IMG/VR virus record: IMGVR_UViG_3300038369_000033
Span: 1 to 21,250 of that record
Source of the DNA: a virus
Direction: 5' to 3' (one strand)
Length of the DNA: 21,250 nt
This document shows positions 749-7,615 of the stretch, piece by piece; position 1 is the stretch's first letter; every line of letters begins with the position of its first letter. A program made the position numbers and the translations under genes. Under the pieces are notes generated by a model. It searched no databases. It was not told where the DNA came from and saw only the letters and a list, made by a program, of their open reading frames with translations.

Positions 749-1083
749 GCTGTTTTTAGTATAGGTTTCATTGCAGTTACAACCCATTTAAAGGCTGCTG
801 TTGCAGTTAGGGTTGCAGCTACAGAAACGACTGCTGTAGTAGAAGCCGTTATAAGTATTTCGTTTTCTGGTAAAGGCATTTTGACATCAATAATAGGTAT
901 ATCAATCTGCCTTATGCCAGTAGGTGTTTCTTCTGTAGCCTCTGGTTCTGTGCCCTCTGGTTCTCTAAGATCACTAGGAGGTACTACCAAAGGTACATAA
1001 CTAGGAACGTCAGCTGTTGGTAAAGGTATAGATATTGTTTCAAGTTTTTGTGCTGGTGGTAACTTTATAGTAGGAAGTTCTAT
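703..1083 (-). CDS. Pro-rich single-TM protein, likely ATA start
   Basis: The open frame has no usable ATG. Reading from the ATA at 1083-1081 gives 126 codons: ELPTIKLPPAQ, a Pro-rich region (residues 1-40, including VPSYVPLVVPPSD), an acidic stretch (REPEGTEPEATEE), IDIPIIDVKMPLPEN, one TM segment (about residues 78-102) and a basic tail. ATA overlaps the TAG stop of the upstream gene as ATAG. The GGAG that lies 8 nt upstream is the same element that serves starts elsewhere in this cluster. A conventional caller would use the TTG at 990 and lose 31 residues, but the sequence upstream of 990 is clearly coding and in frame. Role unknown; the layout suggests an inner-membrane or virion-associated protein. 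The start is an inference. Confidence 0.6.
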   Translation of the reverse strand: MELPTIKLPPAQKLETISIPLPTADVPSYVPLVVPPSDLREPEGTEPEATEETPTGIRQIDIPIIDVKMPLPENEILITASTTAVVSVAATLTATAAFKWVVTAMKPILKTAWKKIRSSKDNPKVS

Positions 1084-1667
1084 GCTGCTATCTCCGTAAG
1101 AGTAACTCTACATTGTCCTCTTTGTGCTGAATCGTAATTTCTTCTATTAAACCAAACAGTACTAGAATTTCCACCAGTTGCTCCCTGCAATTTATATGTA
1201 AGATTTGACCCTGCACTTTGTCCATGAGTATCAAAAAATTTATAACTTATCAGTGCAAAACTATATGTGTAACTGGCTGTTGCAACAGCATCATACATAC
1301 CAAATGTGTTCGAGCCACCACTATGACTAGGAAGAAATGTACTATCTCTAAAAAGTTTGAAAACATATCCTGTGTCGTGATCTCTTCCGCAAAGTAAATT
1401 AATATCAACCATTATTGTCGTGCCACTTGAAACACCATTTATTGTTGCATTTAATCCAGATATATCAACATAACTTGCAGAAGCAATAGACGTTATTGAC
1501 TCTTGTGTATTAGTGACTACTTGAAGAACTTTACCACCACCAAAACCTGTTGCTGTTCCAGAACAAGTAGCATTACCTGGAATGGTAACACTACCGTCTG
1601 AAGCTAATGTAATCCCGTCAGAACTAGCTGACGAGTTACGTATGGAGTCTACGATTATTCGAGACAT
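1080..1667 (-). CDS. Short tail-fibre-like protein, GKVLQVV family (paralog 6)
   Basis: A 195-residue protein of the fibre-paralog family: N-terminal Ser/Thr/Gly-rich collar (MSRIIVDSIRNSS, ITLASDGSVTIPG), the GGGKVLQVV motif near residue 45, a beta-rich body with DISGLNATI (about 67-76), FFDTHG and WFNRRNYD, and the terminal TEIAA. It starts 11 nt downstream of the previous gene with a strong AGGAGG. It is the most divergent of the six in the body but keeps the motif order. By position and family it is probably a receptor-binding or fibre-tip component; a beta-sandwich fold is inferred from alternating hydrophobic strands. Its last codons form the GGAGATAGCAGCAT junction that leads into the ATA-start gene. 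Confidence 0.75.
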   Translation of the reverse strand: MSRIIVDSIRNSSASSDGITLASDGSVTIPGNATCSGTATGFGGGKVLQVVTNTQESITSIASASYVDISGLNATINGVSSGTTIMVDINLLCGRDHDTGYVFKLFRDSTFLPSHSGGSNTFGMYDAVATASYTYSFALISYKFFDTHGQSAGSNLTYKLQGATGGNSSTVWFNRRNYDSAQRGQCRVTLTEIAA

Positions 1668-2006: not shown

Positions 2007-2609
2007 TTAAGCTGCTACTTCCATAGCGGTTATTGTTGAACTACCACTATATGAATAATTAACTACGGAGGTATGATAAGCAGTTCTATTTATACAAGTA
2101 AAAACATCTGTTATATTTGACCATTGAACTTTATAAACATGTGCGTTTGTATCTTGTGCATCATCTAAGAAGTTAAAATTCTTATCAAGCATATCGTAGT
2201 AACCACTTCGAGCAGTATTATGAAAACCTCCTGTAAAAGAAGTATAATAGCCAGCAGTTGAATTACCTATATCTGATGTACTGCCTCCAGCAGTTCTTAC
2301 AAGTTTTAAAATATATTCTCCCGCACTAGATACATTCATTTGCACCATAACTAAAATTTTATTACTTGCTGATGTAGGAGTAATACTTACATTAAAACCA
2401 GTTATATCTGCGTAGCTAGTAATTCCATTGATTGAAACAGCAGAATTAACAAATGTTTGTTTAACTTGCAGAATTTTACCTGTATCTCCAACCGCAACTG
2501 TACCGTCTGCATCTGGTAAAGTTAAGACTCTATGTGCACCACCTGTTGTTGATGCTGGAGCCTGTAAGGATACTGACCCAGAGGTAGATCCGACTAATTT
2601 TACGGTCAT
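2007..2609 (-). CDS. Short tail-fibre-like protein, GKILQV family (paralog 5)
   Basis: A 200-residue protein: N-terminal collar (MTVKLVGSTSGSVSLQAP, HRVLTLPDADGTV), GKILQV near residue 43, then a conserved block DITGFNVSITPTSASNKILVMV (about 68-89), FNFLDDAQDTNAHVYKVQW, INRTAYHT, and the ending ITAMEVAA. The collar resembles the T(L/V)P-DADGT segments that phage fibres use to link stem and head. It overlaps the preceding paralog by 4 nt (ATGA), with AAGGAG 8 nt upstream inside that gene. Probably a virion fibre-tip or host-recognition protein; the family assignment is visible, the function inferred. Confidence 0.8.
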   Translation of the reverse strand: MTVKLVGSTSGSVSLQAPASTTGGAHRVLTLPDADGTVAVGDTGKILQVKQTFVNSAVSINGITSYADITGFNVSITPTSASNKILVMVQMNVSSAGEYILKLVRTAGGSTSDIGNSTAGYYTSFTGGFHNTARSGYYDMLDKNFNFLDDAQDTNAHVYKVQWSNITDVFTCINRTAYHTSVVNYSYSGSSTITAMEVAA

Positions 2610-3151
2610 GCTGCTATCTCCTTTACACTAATAGTACTTGTAAATCTTGGTGTTACTATGCTATCTCCATCAGTTTCTCCTCCCGATCTATTTATATAAA
2701 TAGTCATTGGAGATTCAGATTGAACTTGAACCTTGTAAGTAGTAGCACTTGTTGTTGAAGGAGTATCTAAAAATTCAAAAGAAAATGGATGCGTAGTATC
2801 TGTGTTATAAACACCTTGAGTTCCAAAAGTACAACGAGATCGATTACCAGCCGTATCAGCTATACAAATTGCTGTACTACCACGCATTAAATAAAACCTC
2901 ATACCGTATGCAATATTAGTACTTAAACCAGCCATAATAGTTCCTGTAATCAGTACTTTATTAGAACTAGAACTAGGAGTAATATCTACAGAAAAACCTG
3001 TAATATCTACTTGAGAAGTTGAAGCTGTTGAAAATGTATCAGTTTTTGTTGTCGAAACAACTTGAAGAATAGACCCTGCACTCATAGCAGAATCTGGTAA
3101 CTGAGCTAACCCAGTTACGGCACCTGTCGTGCCATTTATTGCTACTGGCAT
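2606..3151 (-). CDS. Short tail-fibre-like protein, ILQVV family (paralog 4)
   Basis: A 181-residue protein: MPVAINGTTGAVTGLAQLPD collar, SILQVVSTTKTDT near residues 28-40, DITGFSVDITPSSSSNKVLITG (about 49-70), a central RRGSTAI-like element (MRGSTAICIADTAGNRSRC), FLDTPSTTSATTYKVQV, YINRSG and the terminal VKEIAA. The motif order matches the other five paralogs, and its collar is closest to that of the 189-aa paralog at 4658-5227. It starts directly after the stop of the upstream gene (TAA ATG). Probably a receptor-binding or fibre-tip protein by family and position. Confidence 0.8.
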   Translation of the reverse strand: MPVAINGTTGAVTGLAQLPDSAMSAGSILQVVSTTKTDTFSTASTSQVDITGFSVDITPSSSSNKVLITGTIMAGLSTNIAYGMRFYLMRGSTAICIADTAGNRSRCTFGTQGVYNTDTTHPFSFEFLDTPSTTSATTYKVQVQSESPMTIYINRSGGETDGDSIVTPRFTSTISVKEIAA

Positions 3152-3472
3152 TTATATTATTACCCAAGTCTCGCCAGAACCTACAGTAACTGTAGCTCCT
3201 GAGTTTACTGTTATAGGACCAAATGTACCAGCATTATGATTATTGGTAATCGTATAGTTAGTAGTTACTGTTGTCCCATTCTCCCAAAAGATTTTGTCCG
3301 ACCCACCGCCTGCTGCACCAGCACTAGCTTCAGCCCATGTAAGACCTCCGGCTGCACTGGACTTAGCAGTTAGTACATAATCATTTGTAGGAGTATTATC
3401 TATATTAAGATCGGCTTCTTTGATAGAACCATCTTTGATTCCATCTCCACCTGTTATTTGTGTTAATGCCAT
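3152..3472 (-). CDS. Stand-alone copy of the tail fibre C-terminal module
   Basis: A 106-residue protein that matches the last ~100 residues of the main tail fibre (5231-7615). Both have a (S/T)I(K/T)EA(D/K)L(N/D)I start, a Gly/Ala-rich linker ending GGG(S/T)DKIF(W/Y)ENG, then TVTTNYTITNN(H/T)NA and a strand-rich end (VTVGSGETWVII here, VTIGTGENWTIV in the fibre). It therefore looks like a duplicated fibre tip that became its own gene. It starts within the stop of the preceding paralog (TAATG), with the GGAG junction element upstream, and its own stop abuts the next ATG. It might form homotrimeric tips or exchange with the fibre end; that is inference. Confidence 0.8.
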   Translation of the reverse strand: MALTQITGGDGIKDGSIKEADLNIDNTPTNDYVLTAKSSAAGGLTWAEASAGAAGGGSDKIFWENGTTVTTNYTITNNHNAGTFGPITVNSGATVTVGSGETWVII

Positions 3473-4050
3473 TATGCTGCTATCTCCATTACTGTAATTA
3501 CACTTGCTGTTCTTGCTGTGTAATAAGCATCAGTATCATTAACTGATCTATTAAACCACATAGTAAGAGAAGAGTTTCTACCATGAGAAAATGCTAAATT
3601 ATAATATCTTTCGCTTGTATTTCCAGCAGTATCTAAAAATTGAAAACTGTGTTGTATTTGATTCCAGCCAGCACCAGCACCAGTTATATTAGTAACTGAT
3701 CTTTTTCTGTTACTAGCTGCATCTCCCATAGCACCAGATAAATCCGTTCCATCTTTTTGTAAATATAAAAAAGTTGAATGATCTCCAACATCAACATTAG
3801 CGTAACCAAAAATTAGTAATTTACTTGATGCAGAAGTAGGAGTAATCGTTGTTTTAAAACCTGTATAACTCCATACTGCTTGAGAAGCTATTGATTGACT
3901 TACTGTATCTGTTTTAGTTGTTGATACAACTTGAAGAATTTTACCACCACCTGACAAGTTAGATATAGTTGTACTTCCATCAGAACCTAAAACAATATTG
4001 TTAGAACCAGAGGAAGCGTGTTTTAAATTTGTTGCGTTTAAAGTTGCCAT
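3472..4050 (-). CDS. Short tail-fibre-like protein, GKILQVV family (paralog 3)
   Basis: A 192-residue protein when started at the ATG at 4050 (MATLNATNLKHASSG). The open frame extends upstream to an ATG at 4101, but 4050 is favoured: it overlaps the upstream stop as TAATG, has GAGG in the conserved junction, and gives a collar like those of its paralogs (IVLGSDGSTTISNL, compare ITLASDGSVTIPG). GGGKILQVVSTTKTDT is near residue 35. It is followed by SYTGFKTTITPTSASSKLLIFG, FLDTAGNTSERYYNLAF, MWFNRSVND and the ending ITVMEIAA. Likely a fibre-tip or receptor-binding virion protein; function inferred from position and family. Confidence 0.8.
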   Translation of the reverse strand: MATLNATNLKHASSGSNNIVLGSDGSTTISNLSGGGKILQVVSTTKTDTVSQSIASQAVWSYTGFKTTITPTSASSKLLIFGYANVDVGDHSTFLYLQKDGTDLSGAMGDAASNRKRSVTNITGAGAGWNQIQHSFQFLDTAGNTSERYYNLAFSHGRNSSLTMWFNRSVNDTDAYYTARTASVITVMEIAA

Positions 4051-4661
4051 TATGCTGCTACCTCTATTGCTGTTATTGATGATGCTGTGCGTATCAACCA
4101 ATTACCAGTGTTGTAGGAAGTTCGATTAAGAAACATAGCAGAAGCATCAGTTCTAGCCCCCCAATATATTTGGTAAGTTGTTTGAGATGTTGTATTAGGA
4201 CTATCTAAAAAATTATCATTGTGGTTAAACATTTGAAATTGGTTAGCAAGATATATAAAACTTGTTGTATCAGTTATTGATAACCCTGTATTATCTCCTG
4301 TATAAATTGCTGTGCTACCTCTTCTTAGCTGAAACTGGGCCCAACAGTTAGTTGAGCTAAGTTTAAGGTTTGTTATTATATAAATTTTACTTGTTGTGGC
4401 AGATGGTGTTATATCAACAGACAAACCTGATATTGCAGCTAAAGTATCTGTACCACTACTTCCTCCTCTACTTACAACGTCAGTTTTAACTGTTTGCACA
4501 ACTTGAAGAATTTTACCAAAGCTATCTGATGTGGTAGCTAATGTTGCATTACCAGTTCCAGGTACAGTCAGTTCAATAGCTGCATTACCAGTTGTAGTAG
4601 ATGGTCCTTTTAAGGAGACTGTGCCTCCACCGCCGTCTGCGGTTAATTTTAATTGGCTCAT
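4050..4661 (-). CDS. Short tail-fibre-like protein, GKILQVV family (paralog 2)
   Basis: A 203-residue protein: collar MSQLKLTADGGGGTVSLKGP and AAIELTVPGTGNATL (close to the T-LP-DADG collar of paralog 5), FGKILQVVQTVKTD near residue 48, AISGLSVDITPSATTSKIYII (about 73-93), QLRRGSTAIYTGDNTG, FLDSPNTTSQTTYQIYW, MFLNRTSYNT and the terminal ITAIEVAA. The start overlaps the upstream stop as ATGA, with GGAG at 4670-4673, 8 nt from the ATG. The downstream junction is TAATG. Probably a virion fibre-tip protein; the family link is direct from the motifs, the function is inferred. Confidence 0.8.
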   Translation of the reverse strand: MSQLKLTADGGGGTVSLKGPSTTTGNAAIELTVPGTGNATLATTSDSFGKILQVVQTVKTDVVSRGGSSGTDTLAAISGLSVDITPSATTSKIYIITNLKLSSTNCWAQFQLRRGSTAIYTGDNTGLSITDTTSFIYLANQFQMFNHNDNFLDSPNTTSQTTYQIYWGARTDASAMFLNRTSYNTGNWLIRTASSITAIEVAA

Positions 4662-5227
4662 GCTGCTATCTCCATAACTGTTATTGAACTTACAACTCTT
4701 GCTCTATTAGCTTGGTCTGAATCACTTGTACCCCTGTTTATGTAAAAAGTATTACTTGCTGCATCTGTTTCATTTACTGAAATTTTATAAGTATGTTGAC
4801 TTGTATCAGGAGCAGTATCTAAAAATGTTATTGGAACAACTTTACAATCAACTGAGTTGCTTTGATTTTCTACGTTTGTCGTTAATCGACCACGACTACC
4901 AGCAGTATCACCTAAAAAGATTGAAGTTGAGTCTCTCCTTAATAAAGTACCCATTCCAGAAGAAATAGAGCTTAGAGCAACCATAGCCATAATAAGCATT
5001 TTATTACCTGTTGCTGATGCTGTAATATCTACACTTAGTCCTGAAATATCATAAATATTTCCACCGCTACTTGCTATAGAAGCAGTATCAGTTTTAGCTG
5101 CCGAAACAACTTGAAGAATTTTACCTCCAACTCCACTTGCTAAATCAGCACTTTGTATTATTCCGTCTGGTAAACCACCAGCCGATATACCGGTCACTGT
5201 GCCAGACCCGCTTAATGTAATAGGCAT
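4658..5227 (-). CDS. Short tail-fibre-like protein, GKILQVV family (paralog 1)
   Basis: A 189-residue protein, first of the paralog cassette and only 3 nt after the tail fibre stop. The collar MPITLSGSGTVTGISAGGLPDG resembles paralog 4; GGKILQVVSAAKTDT is at about residues 34-48. ISGLSVDITASATGNKMLIMA, LRRDSTSIFLGDTAGSRGR, FLDTAPDTSQHTYKISV, YINRGTSDSD and the ending ITVMEIAA follow. The RRxS-x-I...GDTAGxRxR element is shared with paralogs 2 and 4. Directly following gp17 places it with receptor recognition. It may be a fibre tip, a second fibre type or a trimeric adhesin head. The beta-sandwich fold is inferred. Confidence 0.8.
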   Translation of the reverse strand: MPITLSGSGTVTGISAGGLPDGIIQSADLASGVGGKILQVVSAAKTDTASIASSGGNIYDISGLSVDITASATGNKMLIMAMVALSSISSGMGTLLRRDSTSIFLGDTAGSRGRLTTNVENQSNSVDCKVVPITFLDTAPDTSQHTYKISVNETDAASNTFYINRGTSDSDQANRARVVSSITVMEIAA

Positions 5228-5230
5228 AAT

Positions 5231-7615
5231 TTATACGATTGTCCAGTTTTCTCCAGTACCGATAGTCACAGCAACACCGTTATTGATGGTCACAGGACCA
5301 GCACTCATGGCGTTTGTATTATTAGTAATGGTGTAATTGGTCGTTACGGTTTGACCATTTTCATAGAAAATTTTGTCAGTTCCTCCACCTGTTGCTCCGG
5401 CTTCTGCTACAACCCACTCCATACCATTAGCTGTATAGCCAAGTACTTTGTCAGTTCCAGAAGGAGCTGCATGTATATCTAGTTTTGCTTCTGTTATACT
5501 ATCGTCTGCTAACTTACTACCAGCAATAGCTGCTGAAGCATTTATATCAGCATTGACAATAGTACCATCTACAATCTTGGCAGATGTAACAGAATTGTCG
5601 GCTGGTACACTAAGACTTATTGCGTTTCCGAGGGTAAGAATAAAGAAGTCAGAACCACTAGCAGGGGCACTGGCAAATATAATGTCATTACCATCAATAG
5701 CAAATCCTTCGCTTGGACTGGTTCCACTATTAGGTTTCTGAATGACTCCATTGACGCTAACAAGATGAGCTTGTGCATTTGTTCCGGCATTAGATAATGT
5801 AAATCTTGTAGCTGTACCATTAAAGGTTGCACTACCACCACCTGAGCCACTTGAGCTAGATAGTGTATTTATTTGTATGTTGTAAGGACTAACCGGTAAG
5901 TTAGTTAAATTTGCACCACTAACTGCGGGTAAAGTTGCAGGGAATCTTGCATCAGGAATAGTACCAGATGTTAAACTATCTGCACTAAGAGCTGTTAAAT
6001 CTACAGCAGCCCAGCTAAGGTTTCCATTAGTATCAGTTTTTAAGAATTGACCATTAACTATATTGTTAGGCAAAGTTAATGTATAACTTGCACTGGCACT
6101 ATGAGCTGGTCCTTTTATGGTTACACCATGACTGTTGTTTTCACAGTTAAGTTGTATTGATCCAGCGTTAGTATTACCTTTTACTTCTACTTTTCCAGTT
6201 CCGTTAGGACCTAGTTTTATATTTCCGTTAGTTGTGCTTGTAGTAATCTCACTTGCTTGTACATCTAAGTTACCACCAAGTTGAGGTGTAGTGTCATCTA
6301 CAACATCTGTAGCTACATCAACAAATTCTAAAGCGTTTGCTGCACTATTAACTTTAACTGTTTTACTTGCAGCTCCTGTAAAGTTTGCTGGGGTATCTGT
6401 AAGCCCTGCAAAATTACCGGCTGGTGTTGTAACTGTAACAAACTCAACTGCATCACCAGCAGAGTTTACTTTAAGTGTTTTACCAGCAGCACTTCCAAAG
6501 TTAGCTGGTGTGTCAGATAATCCTGTAAATGTAGAACTACCTCCACCACCACCTCCACCACCGTCATCGGCGATGATAAATGCAGATGAAGAAGAATCAT
6601 ATTTTAGTATCTTACCGTCAGCTACACCGGATGTATTTACATCTGATAAAGCATTTAATCCAGTAACTAAAGTTGGTTTGTTTAATATCTGTGCATCTCC
6701 AGAACTAGCGTTCCAGTCAGCATTCACATTTACTTCAGCTCCAGTTGCTATGCCATTAAGTTTAGTATGGTCAGCATCAGTAAATACATTACTATCGGTA
6801 GCATTTTCTACAAGTGTTCTTATTTCTGCTGCGGTTTGATCTGCTGTAGCTGCTGTTTCAATACCGTTTAATTTTGTATGATCTGCGTCTGTAAAAACAT
6901 TACTGTCGGTAGCAGATTCAACAAGAGTTCTTATTTCTGCTGCTGTCTGATCTCCAGTAGCTCCACTCTCTATTCCGTCAAGTTTTGTACCATCAGCAGC
7001 TACGTCTCTACCATCTACAGTTCCAGAAACAGTTATGTTTCCTGTTACTCCTAAGTTACCAGTAGCACCAGTTCCTGTAGTAACAATATTTTGACTACCA
7101 AAATTAGGTGATATTTTAGTTCCATCTATAGCTGCACTTGCATTTACATCAGCATTAACTATAGTTCCATCTAATATTTTACTAGAAGTTACAGAACCAT
7201 CTTGCAATTCTGGATTTTCAATTGGTTGTTCTTGTAACTCGTGTATTGCATAAAGTGCTTGTTCAGTATTTGCATTTAAATCAACAGCTCTAATAGACGA
7301 ACCAGCTGCATATACAGCTTTAGGATCATCATCACCTGTAGATTTACCAACAGTTGTTTGTCTAAATACTCTTACTAATACTCCTGACTTGGGAGCACCA
7401 GTACTTTCCTGTACTGAACTATCTACACTTGTATTATTAAAAGTTATTTTGGTGGGATTGCTTGCAGTATCAACTGCATATTTAGTTGTCGCTTGTGTTA
7501 CTCCATTAAGAGCAACTTTTACATCTTCAGTTTGTATGACAGGGAAGGTGTACGTAAATTCCAGATCGGAACCATTGGGTGCACCTCCACCATTGTCGGT
7601 GTATGTAATTGCCAT
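5231..7615 (-). CDS. T7 gp17-like tail fibre protein
   Basis: A 794-residue fibre. Residues 1-130 (MAITYTDNGGG, FTYTFPVI, VKVALNG, VLVRVFRQTTVGKSTGDDDP, SSIRAVDLNANTEQALYAIHELQEQ) match the T7 gp17 N-terminal domain that attaches fibres to the tail. The shaft holds repeats: DGTIVNADVNASAAIDGTKI near 147 and again near 685; two 37-residue repeats (about 212-288) with DSNVFTDADHTKLNGI; a nine-glycine linker near 350; and two SDTPANF-type repeats (about 363-425). The C-terminal module (about 715-794, GGGTDKIFYENG...) is duplicated as a separate gene at 3152-3472. The start has a good AGGAG. It is longer than T7 gp17 (about 550 aa). Role: host receptor recognition. Confidence 0.93.
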   Translation of the reverse strand: MAITYTDNGGGAPNGSDLEFTYTFPVIQTEDVKVALNGVTQATTKYAVDTASNPTKITFNNTSVDSSVQESTGAPKSGVLVRVFRQTTVGKSTGDDDPKAVYAAGSSIRAVDLNANTEQALYAIHELQEQPIENPELQDGSVTSSKILDGTIVNADVNASAAIDGTKISPNFGSQNIVTTGTGATGNLGVTGNITVSGTVDGRDVAADGTKLDGIESGATGDQTAAEIRTLVESATDSNVFTDADHTKLNGIETAATADQTAAEIRTLVENATDSNVFTDADHTKLNGIATGAEVNVNADWNASSGDAQILNKPTLVTGLNALSDVNTSGVADGKILKYDSSSSAFIIADDGGGGGGGGSSTFTGLSDTPANFGSAAGKTLKVNSAGDAVEFVTVTTPAGNFAGLTDTPANFTGAASKTVKVNSAANALEFVDVATDVVDDTTPQLGGNLDVQASEITTSTTNGNIKLGPNGTGKVEVKGNTNAGSIQLNCENNSHGVTIKGPAHSASASYTLTLPNNIVNGQFLKTDTNGNLSWAAVDLTALSADSLTSGTIPDARFPATLPAVSGANLTNLPVSPYNIQINTLSSSSGSGGGSATFNGTATRFTLSNAGTNAQAHLVSVNGVIQKPNSGTSPSEGFAIDGNDIIFASAPASGSDFFILTLGNAISLSVPADNSVTSAKIVDGTIVNADINASAAIAGSKLADDSITEAKLDIHAAPSGTDKVLGYTANGMEWVVAEAGATGGGTDKIFYENGQTVTTNYTITNNTNAMSAGPVTINNGVAVTIGTGENWTIV
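6750..6980 (-). repeat. Tandem 37-residue repeat in the tail fibre shaft
   Basis: Two diverged copies of a 111-nt unit are visible: acattact(a/g)tcggtagca occurs at 6786 and again at 6897. At protein level the unit reads (Q)TAAEIRTLVE(S/N)ATDSNVFTDADHTKLNGI and is flanked by partial copies (KLDGIESGATGDQ upstream, KLNGIATGAEVN downstream). Such repeats are usual in trimeric fibre shafts and can change fibre length by recombination. Confidence 0.85.

Follow-up and report, generated by a model that had tools for sequence, protein, structure and literature searches.

Branched receptor-binding systems of the KP32 type are the nearest working analogue of the arrangement proposed below, which is not claimed as a member of that class. 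According to PMC13082707, a second receptor-binding protein (RBP) of Klebsiella phage KP32 and of G7C docks through a short conserved N-terminal peptide, and the SP6 adaptor bears two RBPs; in KP32, docking takes place on a T4 gp10-like branching domain that forms part of RBP1, and these RBPs have enzymatic activity. At the locus described here, by contrast, the candidate socket is a 58-aa C-terminal module, the putative heads are six small jelly-roll proteins, and no gp10-like branching domain is named among the Pfam and PHROG matches of the fibre. That C1q-like and fibre genes vary among marine phages is already known: PMC3909814 (2014) describes metaviromic islands with C1q-like genes and T7-like tail fibres of pelagiphages, both variable and interpreted as host-recognition genes; the part consulted holds no mention of fixed tags, slots filled once each, exchange between slots or a free module. 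A search of the open-access literature returned no description of the free module, the tags or the one-of-each rule. The fibres of P-SSP7 are not shown at full length in the tomography as excerpted in PMC5345008, and the distal tail fibres are not resolved in the P-SCSP1u structure in the excerpt of PMC10575957.

Genomic setting of the cassette

The stretch analysed (the window) is a virus record of 21,250 bases. It comes from an ocean virus of cyanobacteria that shares 93.3% identity with Prochlorococcus phage P-SSP7 in the major head protein. Families of major head, tail, tail and internal virion proteins follow one another in T7-like gene order, and a 1368-aa ORF directly before the fibre gene is likened by position to P-SSP7 gp16. 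Directly after this presumed large internal core gene, the fibre gene occupies the place of a T7 gp17-like gene. A profile of fibre residues 1–160 matches residues 10–142 of P-SSP7 gp17 (82 bits), residues 1–175 match phrog_13518, and similarity to P-SCSP1u gp28 (E 7.6e-70) peaks at residues 595–702; a Pfam search at E 0.01 found no T7 fibre domain. The features of the cassette are as follows.

1080..1667, minus strand: tagged head protein C2
1679..1978, minus strand: conserved 99-aa cassette gene, phrog_9114 (unknown function)
2007..2609, minus strand: tagged head protein B2
2606..3151, minus strand: tagged head protein A2, directly behind the free module (model, mean pLDDT 86.8)
3077..3151, minus strand: A2 tag, residues 1–25, mostly of low model confidence
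3152..3472, minus strand: free-standing module gene, 106 aa, ATG start (from ORF, homology and contig scan)
3155..3328, minus strand: C-terminal module, 58 aa, of the free 106-aa protein
3329..3472, minus strand: N-terminal 48 aa of the free 106-aa protein, evolving slower than the module
3472..4050, minus strand: tagged head protein C1, with a conserved ATG at 4050 inside a longer TTG ORF
4050..4661, minus strand: tagged head protein B1
4658..5227, minus strand: tagged head protein A1, just after the fibre gene
5126..5227, minus strand: A1 tag, residues 1–34
5231..7615, minus strand: tail fibre, 794 aa, gp17-like by position and by similarity to P-SSP7 gp17
5234..5407, minus strand: fused module copy at the very C-terminus of the fibre (from homology and diagnostic columns)

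Past the fibre lie six paralogous small genes, each composed of an N-terminal tag and a head, and the order of the window reads fibre module, A1, B1, C1, free module, A2, B2, phrog_9114 gene, C2. The free gene thus stands inside the paralog cassette, as the preliminary description placed it, with three tagged heads before it and two plus one after. P-SSP7 (gp17 and ORFs 037–041) has the same fused fibre-end module followed by A1, B1, C1, the phrog_9114 gene and C2, but is without exactly the block of free module, A2 and B2; from the last head to the phrog_9114 gene, the two sequences are nearly identical. The phrog_9114 gene, which in the window is flanked by head genes and comes immediately before C2, has a C-terminal motif that may resemble tail-fibre assembly proteins. 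Cyanophage SS120-1 (CYYG_00028) likewise carries a free-standing module, of 128 aa, followed by an A-type-tagged protein, but differs from the window in that two large genes separate the internal virion protein from the module; this separate gene is the only module detected in that record, which yielded no fused copy.

The free-standing module and its relatives

Residues 9–106 of the free protein align by BLASTP with residues 699–794 of the 794-aa fibre (54/99 identical, 55%; 67/99 positive; E = 3e-20), in keeping with the earlier claim that the protein repeats roughly the last 100 residues of the fibre. The strand TVTTNYTITNN is identical in both proteins and the GGG(S/T)DKIF(W/Y)ENG stretch is present as described. 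This similarity extends beyond low-complexity Gly/Thr/Asn residues, since E is still 1.9e-12 under SEG masking. Strong likeness to the fibre resides in the last 58 aa, and the first 48 aa are loosely fibre-like. At the DNA level the two genes agree weakly, by 61/84 bases in the best stretch; the duplication is therefore old.

Relatives were collected in two sets. The 106-aa protein, used as query against viral contigs, yielded a first set of 79 distinct loci (best 80 of 135 relatives), and a scan with the family alignment, matching at least 599 stretches, yielded a second set of 72 new loci (best 80 of at least 579 relatives), 11 of which were dropped as contigs of the first set, leaving 61 further contigs. 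The same free gene recurs at 85–97% identity in at least 38 further contigs (L001–L037 and L040, the copies of L033 and L036 being cut by contig ends) and is therefore not a chance reading frame; the free copy of L038 shares 78% identity with that of the window. Counted from their own ATG and with the window included, the free 106-aa copies number 36 under one filter and 39 under another that is slightly wider and also admits L036, cut at its start. The reading frame is open in the counted copies, save that L036 is cut by the contig end. Among 33 distinct sequences (528 pairs), median amino-acid identity is 94%, with median dN 0.040 and dS 0.367, a ratio of about 0.11; the corresponding medians are 0.018 and 0.369 for the N-terminal 48 aa and 0.060 and 0.389 for the module part. 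By these substitution rates, the free gene is under purifying selection. A functionless relict of duplication is barely credible: nothing speaks for it beyond the gene being a duplicate, and it is rejected on the dN/dS ratio, with open reading frames and fixed neighbours also against it. In all 39 loci with an upstream head, the start of the free gene shares one base with the stop codon of that head, a layout typical of translational coupling.

The free and fused modules fall into two classes. In a tree of 118 modules, built on 58 columns only, the 20 distinct free 106-aa copies occupy one side of a branch with SH-aLRT 85, a support that is not starred; the first set's 16 other free forms require seven changes on this tree, two of them forced by starred branches. 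At 11 diagnostic columns, the 39 free copies share one letter at 92–100% and 28 fused copies, taken from contigs having both forms, share another at 96–100%; the window's free copy carries the free-class letter in 10 of the 11. Free and fused ends seem not to interchange, given the separate side of the tree and the diagnostic columns, and no exchange between them was seen in either. The preliminary description had proposed a fibre end that can be swapped; this is not supported for the free copies, and it is the neighbouring heads that exchange instead. Its further suggestion of split fibre systems found support elsewhere: in L070, L075 and L076 a fused-class module is a separate gene, so that what is one chain in one phage is two genes in another; the window, carrying both forms, falls outside this comparison. 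Among the matches listed, free and fused modules co-occur in 29 contigs. Phages with one form, which the preliminary description had proposed to look for, were also found: fused modules alone in P-SSP7, a complete record, and in contig L058, and separate modules alone, behind a fibre without a detected module, in L070, L076 and SS120-1, the contigs being fragments. Each form thus occurs without the other, which tells against the obligate co-assembly in hetero-trimers envisaged there. In L025, L039 and L062, the C-terminal module of the fibre is strongly diverged or only partly matched, and the separate module of the same contig matches well.

More broadly, the module is widespread as the C-terminal part of phage proteins. 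Its last residue coincides with that of the protein in 109/112 first-set cases (1 residue away in one and 7 away in two; scored without matches below 25 bits or ORFs truncated at the 3' end) and in 71/72 second-set cases, the remaining one being 1 residue away. Searching 50,697 phage records with a single 58-aa module query retrieved 166, most of them from cyanophages. Genes encoding a separate module are not confined to these cassettes: others are known from a Vibrio phage (138 aa), a Methylophilales phage (147 aa) and the large Synechococcus phage S-B43 (209 aa). Relatives were also seen in ten genome contigs (L158–L167), nine metagenome-assembled and one from Variovorax sp. J22G73. Two tiny separate module genes adjoin in L114, of 71 aa (1949–2164) and 92 aa (2201–2479). 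Ten contigs carry two module-ending proteins each (L107, L113, L122, L128, L129, L134, L136, L146, L151 and L153), and in seven of these the second module is followed by a 76–77-aa gene beginning M[KR]..IEKQ.

Database comparison gave the module no family. The window's copy has no Pfam match, nor does the free 106-aa protein of the window match a Pfam family of any kind at E 0.01. Membership in DUF6799, weakly matched by 17 of 64 module members (best E 0.00019), was not accepted, and phmmer matches to CD276 and tyrosinase (E 0.17 and above) were taken as chance. A profile search found no related solved structure at E 0.1. The single-chain AlphaFold model of the module was poor (mean pLDDT 60.6) and was not used for structure search.

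Address tags and exchangeable heads

The A2 protein of the window was modelled from 115 sequences. Its first 20 residues have pLDDT 47–53, and the tag appears in the model with low confidence and no regular structure. In Foldseek the A2 head ranks highest with the C-terminal domain of Chlamydia Pgp3 (E 2.2e-7) and with the TNF-like lectins PLTL and BC2L-C; VIA-align gave Z 14.8 against PLTL (rmsd 2.0, 125 aligned), 11.0 against the C1q domain of Caprin-2 and 9.6 against C1q. Because the modelled A2 head matches TNF-like lectins and C1q domains, the head is predicted to be a TNF/C1q-like jelly-roll, the other heads being assigned by sequence. A head of the window type also forms the C-terminal part of the solved 658-residue orf22 (PDB 9efk chain AE; E 6.6e-22). 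By analogy with this fold, the heads would be trimeric and sugar-binding.

Tags and heads evolve differently. We compared 17 contigs, namely 19 canonical ones minus the near-copies L011 and L015, with three heads without a recognisable start dropped. Median identity over the first 24 residues is 88–96% within a slot (46% for slot A2), and the heads are 32–41% identical within slots and 34–40% between slots. In the tags, dS is 0.29–0.52 and dN 0.02–0.12; synonymous change with so little amino-acid change indicates that they are kept by selection and are not merely recent. Head pairs at different loci that reach 70% identity number 200 in a comparison that includes near-copy contigs, and 104 of them sit in different slots, at up to 97% identity. 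Heads move between slots behind fixed tags. This exchange does not erase ancestry, because the nearest neighbour of a head keeps its slot in 63/198 cases, more than the 32.7 (sd 6.4) obtained by shuffling. The edges of the heads are conserved in DNA, with the GKILQV stretch in 109 heads and the final 21 bases in 226, and may represent recombination seams.

A few tags stand on unusual proteins: tag C2 of L032 (7820–8815) on a 331-aa protein whose head-profile match is confined to the first 32 residues, tag C1 of L001 (5342–6001) on a 219-aa protein with a weak head-profile match, and a slot tag of L018 (6706–7437) on a protein little like the usual head. These sequences suggest that tags may accept other folds.

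Pairing of modules and tags

In the first set, 97 of the 100 head genes that immediately follow a module of either form carry tag A, as do 0 of 164 elsewhere, the 100 being genes recognised by the head profile at most 75 bases from a module; the pattern was drawn from these same contigs, and the second set served as the test on others. The three exceptions are L061 and L063, which carry another tag, and L039, whose tag lies just past the searched stretch owing to an early ORF start. Nine modules fall outside the 100, their next gene not being recognised by the head profile: an A-type tag is seen by eye in five (L053, L054, L073, L075 and L076), a loose tag-A fit in two (L079 and the fused module of L062) and none in two (L078 and L082).

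Of the 23 contigs that span fibre to phrog_9114 gene with both modules, 21 contain each of the six tags exactly once, counted with a version of the patterns loosened after misses such as the window's own A2. The exceptions are L025, where A1 and C1 are not recognised, and L039, where no tag is. Seventeen of the 21 follow the window's order and four show three other orders; the pairs of fibre module with A1 and of free module with A2 are unbroken in all 21. Among fibre-to-phrog_9114 spans, the free 106-aa copy, A2 and B2 are found together in 22/22 contigs with a free copy (21 by script and L021 by hand, its copy having been missed by the start-motif filter) and in 0/7 without one, three of these seven (L039, L061 and L063) having no recognised tag. 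The separate fused-class modules of L070, L075 and L076 are followed by A1-like tags, so that the tag goes with the class of the module and not with its fusion; L075 and L076 are alike, which makes at most two independent cases. The contigs behind all these counts are related and include near-copies such as L008/L010/L011, L014/L015, L009/L037, L026/L027 and L075/L076, for which reason Fisher p-values for the tag counts are given no weight.

A universal tag-A rule was not borne out beyond the first set. The next gene is visible behind 69 second-set modules (three have none visible) and is A-type in 13, six by the original and seven by the loosened pattern; another tag family, MS[TQ][LI]K..., follows in 37, an unrelated 76-aa gene in 11 and something else in eight. 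A module can therefore stand without a following head gene. The other tag is found on 27 head genes beside modules and on 34 away from them, and A-type tags away from modules occur on three head genes by the loosened pattern and one by the original. Since other tags and genes predominate in the second set, the tight module–tag rule is a property of P-SSP7-like cassettes. The family MS[TQ][LI]K[VA][ND]... recurs in many of L100–L156, with similar tags in L061 and L063, often before heads of the same kind.

A candidate second socket and competing readings

We propose, at a probability of about 0.5, that the 106-aa protein is the dedicated second socket of a multi-head adhesion cassette. Through the old duplication, the phage would have gained a fibre-end module of its own, with a 48-aa N-terminal stalk or anchor and no fibre shaft. 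The fibre's own end would serve head A1, and the free module would serve A2, with B2 as companion. Each head protein would combine a fixed N-terminal address tag with an interchangeable TNF/C1q-like head, probably trimeric, that binds a surface glycan or another receptor; phages would change specificity by exchanging heads behind fixed tags, and the free module would raise the number of exchangeable heads from four, as in P-SSP7, to six. The proposal draws on homology, purifying selection, fixed module–tag pairs, one tag of each kind per cassette and head exchange between slots, all of which the sequences show. It further supposes that the module physically binds the tag and is itself trimeric, that the 106-aa protein has an attachment place of its own, and that the heads bind receptors. 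Module and tag A are neighbouring DNA, so that their pairing could reflect linkage alone; the co-occurrence of module, A2 and B2 and the match of tag to module class could arise in the same way. Counting against a socket are the A-type tag behind only 13/69 second-set modules and the less conserved tags of slot A2 (46%). A wider version, which we regard as tentative, sees addressable adhesins: six heads drawn from a shared and exchanged pool would be sent by their own tags to six places on the virion, the two modules being class-specific sockets for A1 and A2.

The chief rival, and a serious one, is a generic C-terminal cap. In this reading the module's only role is to close and trimerise fibre ends in a foldon-like manner; the free protein would be a short homotrimeric stalk or plug, and the head gene behind it would owe its place to operon history and not to any binding. 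A module ending within one residue of the C-terminus in 72/72 second-set and 110/112 first-set cases fits such a cap well, as do its wide spread in phage records (166/50,697, mostly cyanophages), the unrelated 76-aa gene in 11/69 second-set cases and the separate module genes of 138–209 aa in Vibrio, Methylophilales and large Synechococcus phages. We nevertheless hold it to be less likely than the socket; for P-SSP7-like cassettes it offers no account, other than linkage, of why module class pairs with tag class or why the module, A2 and B2 are present together. An assembly factor that nucleates the folding or trimerisation of the fibre or the heads without entering the virion would accord with the small size, strong conservation and position among fibre genes of the 106-aa protein, and with the overlap of its start with the stop codon of the head gene before it; a chaperone that duplicates a structural end would, in our view, be unusual, and the lack of any Pfam family at E 0.01 lends no help, which makes this improbable. 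More improbable still is hetero-assembly, in which the free copy would mix with the fibre C-terminus in mixed trimers or cap alternative fibres. The homology of the free copy to the fibre end and the 29 contigs with both forms speak for such mixing, but each form occurs without the other, the 11 columns set the two classes apart, and the free form keeps to one side of a branch with support 85.

Were the addressable version of the socket reading true, a phage could hold up to six receptor specificities, each changed independently, and the free module would be the step that added a second docking station. Should the tag, head and module rules hold, sequence alone would suffice to recognise head genes and assign their places, P-SSP7 and its three-gene-longer relatives would offer a natural comparison, and selection would be seen to act on interchangeable adhesin heads behind fixed addresses.
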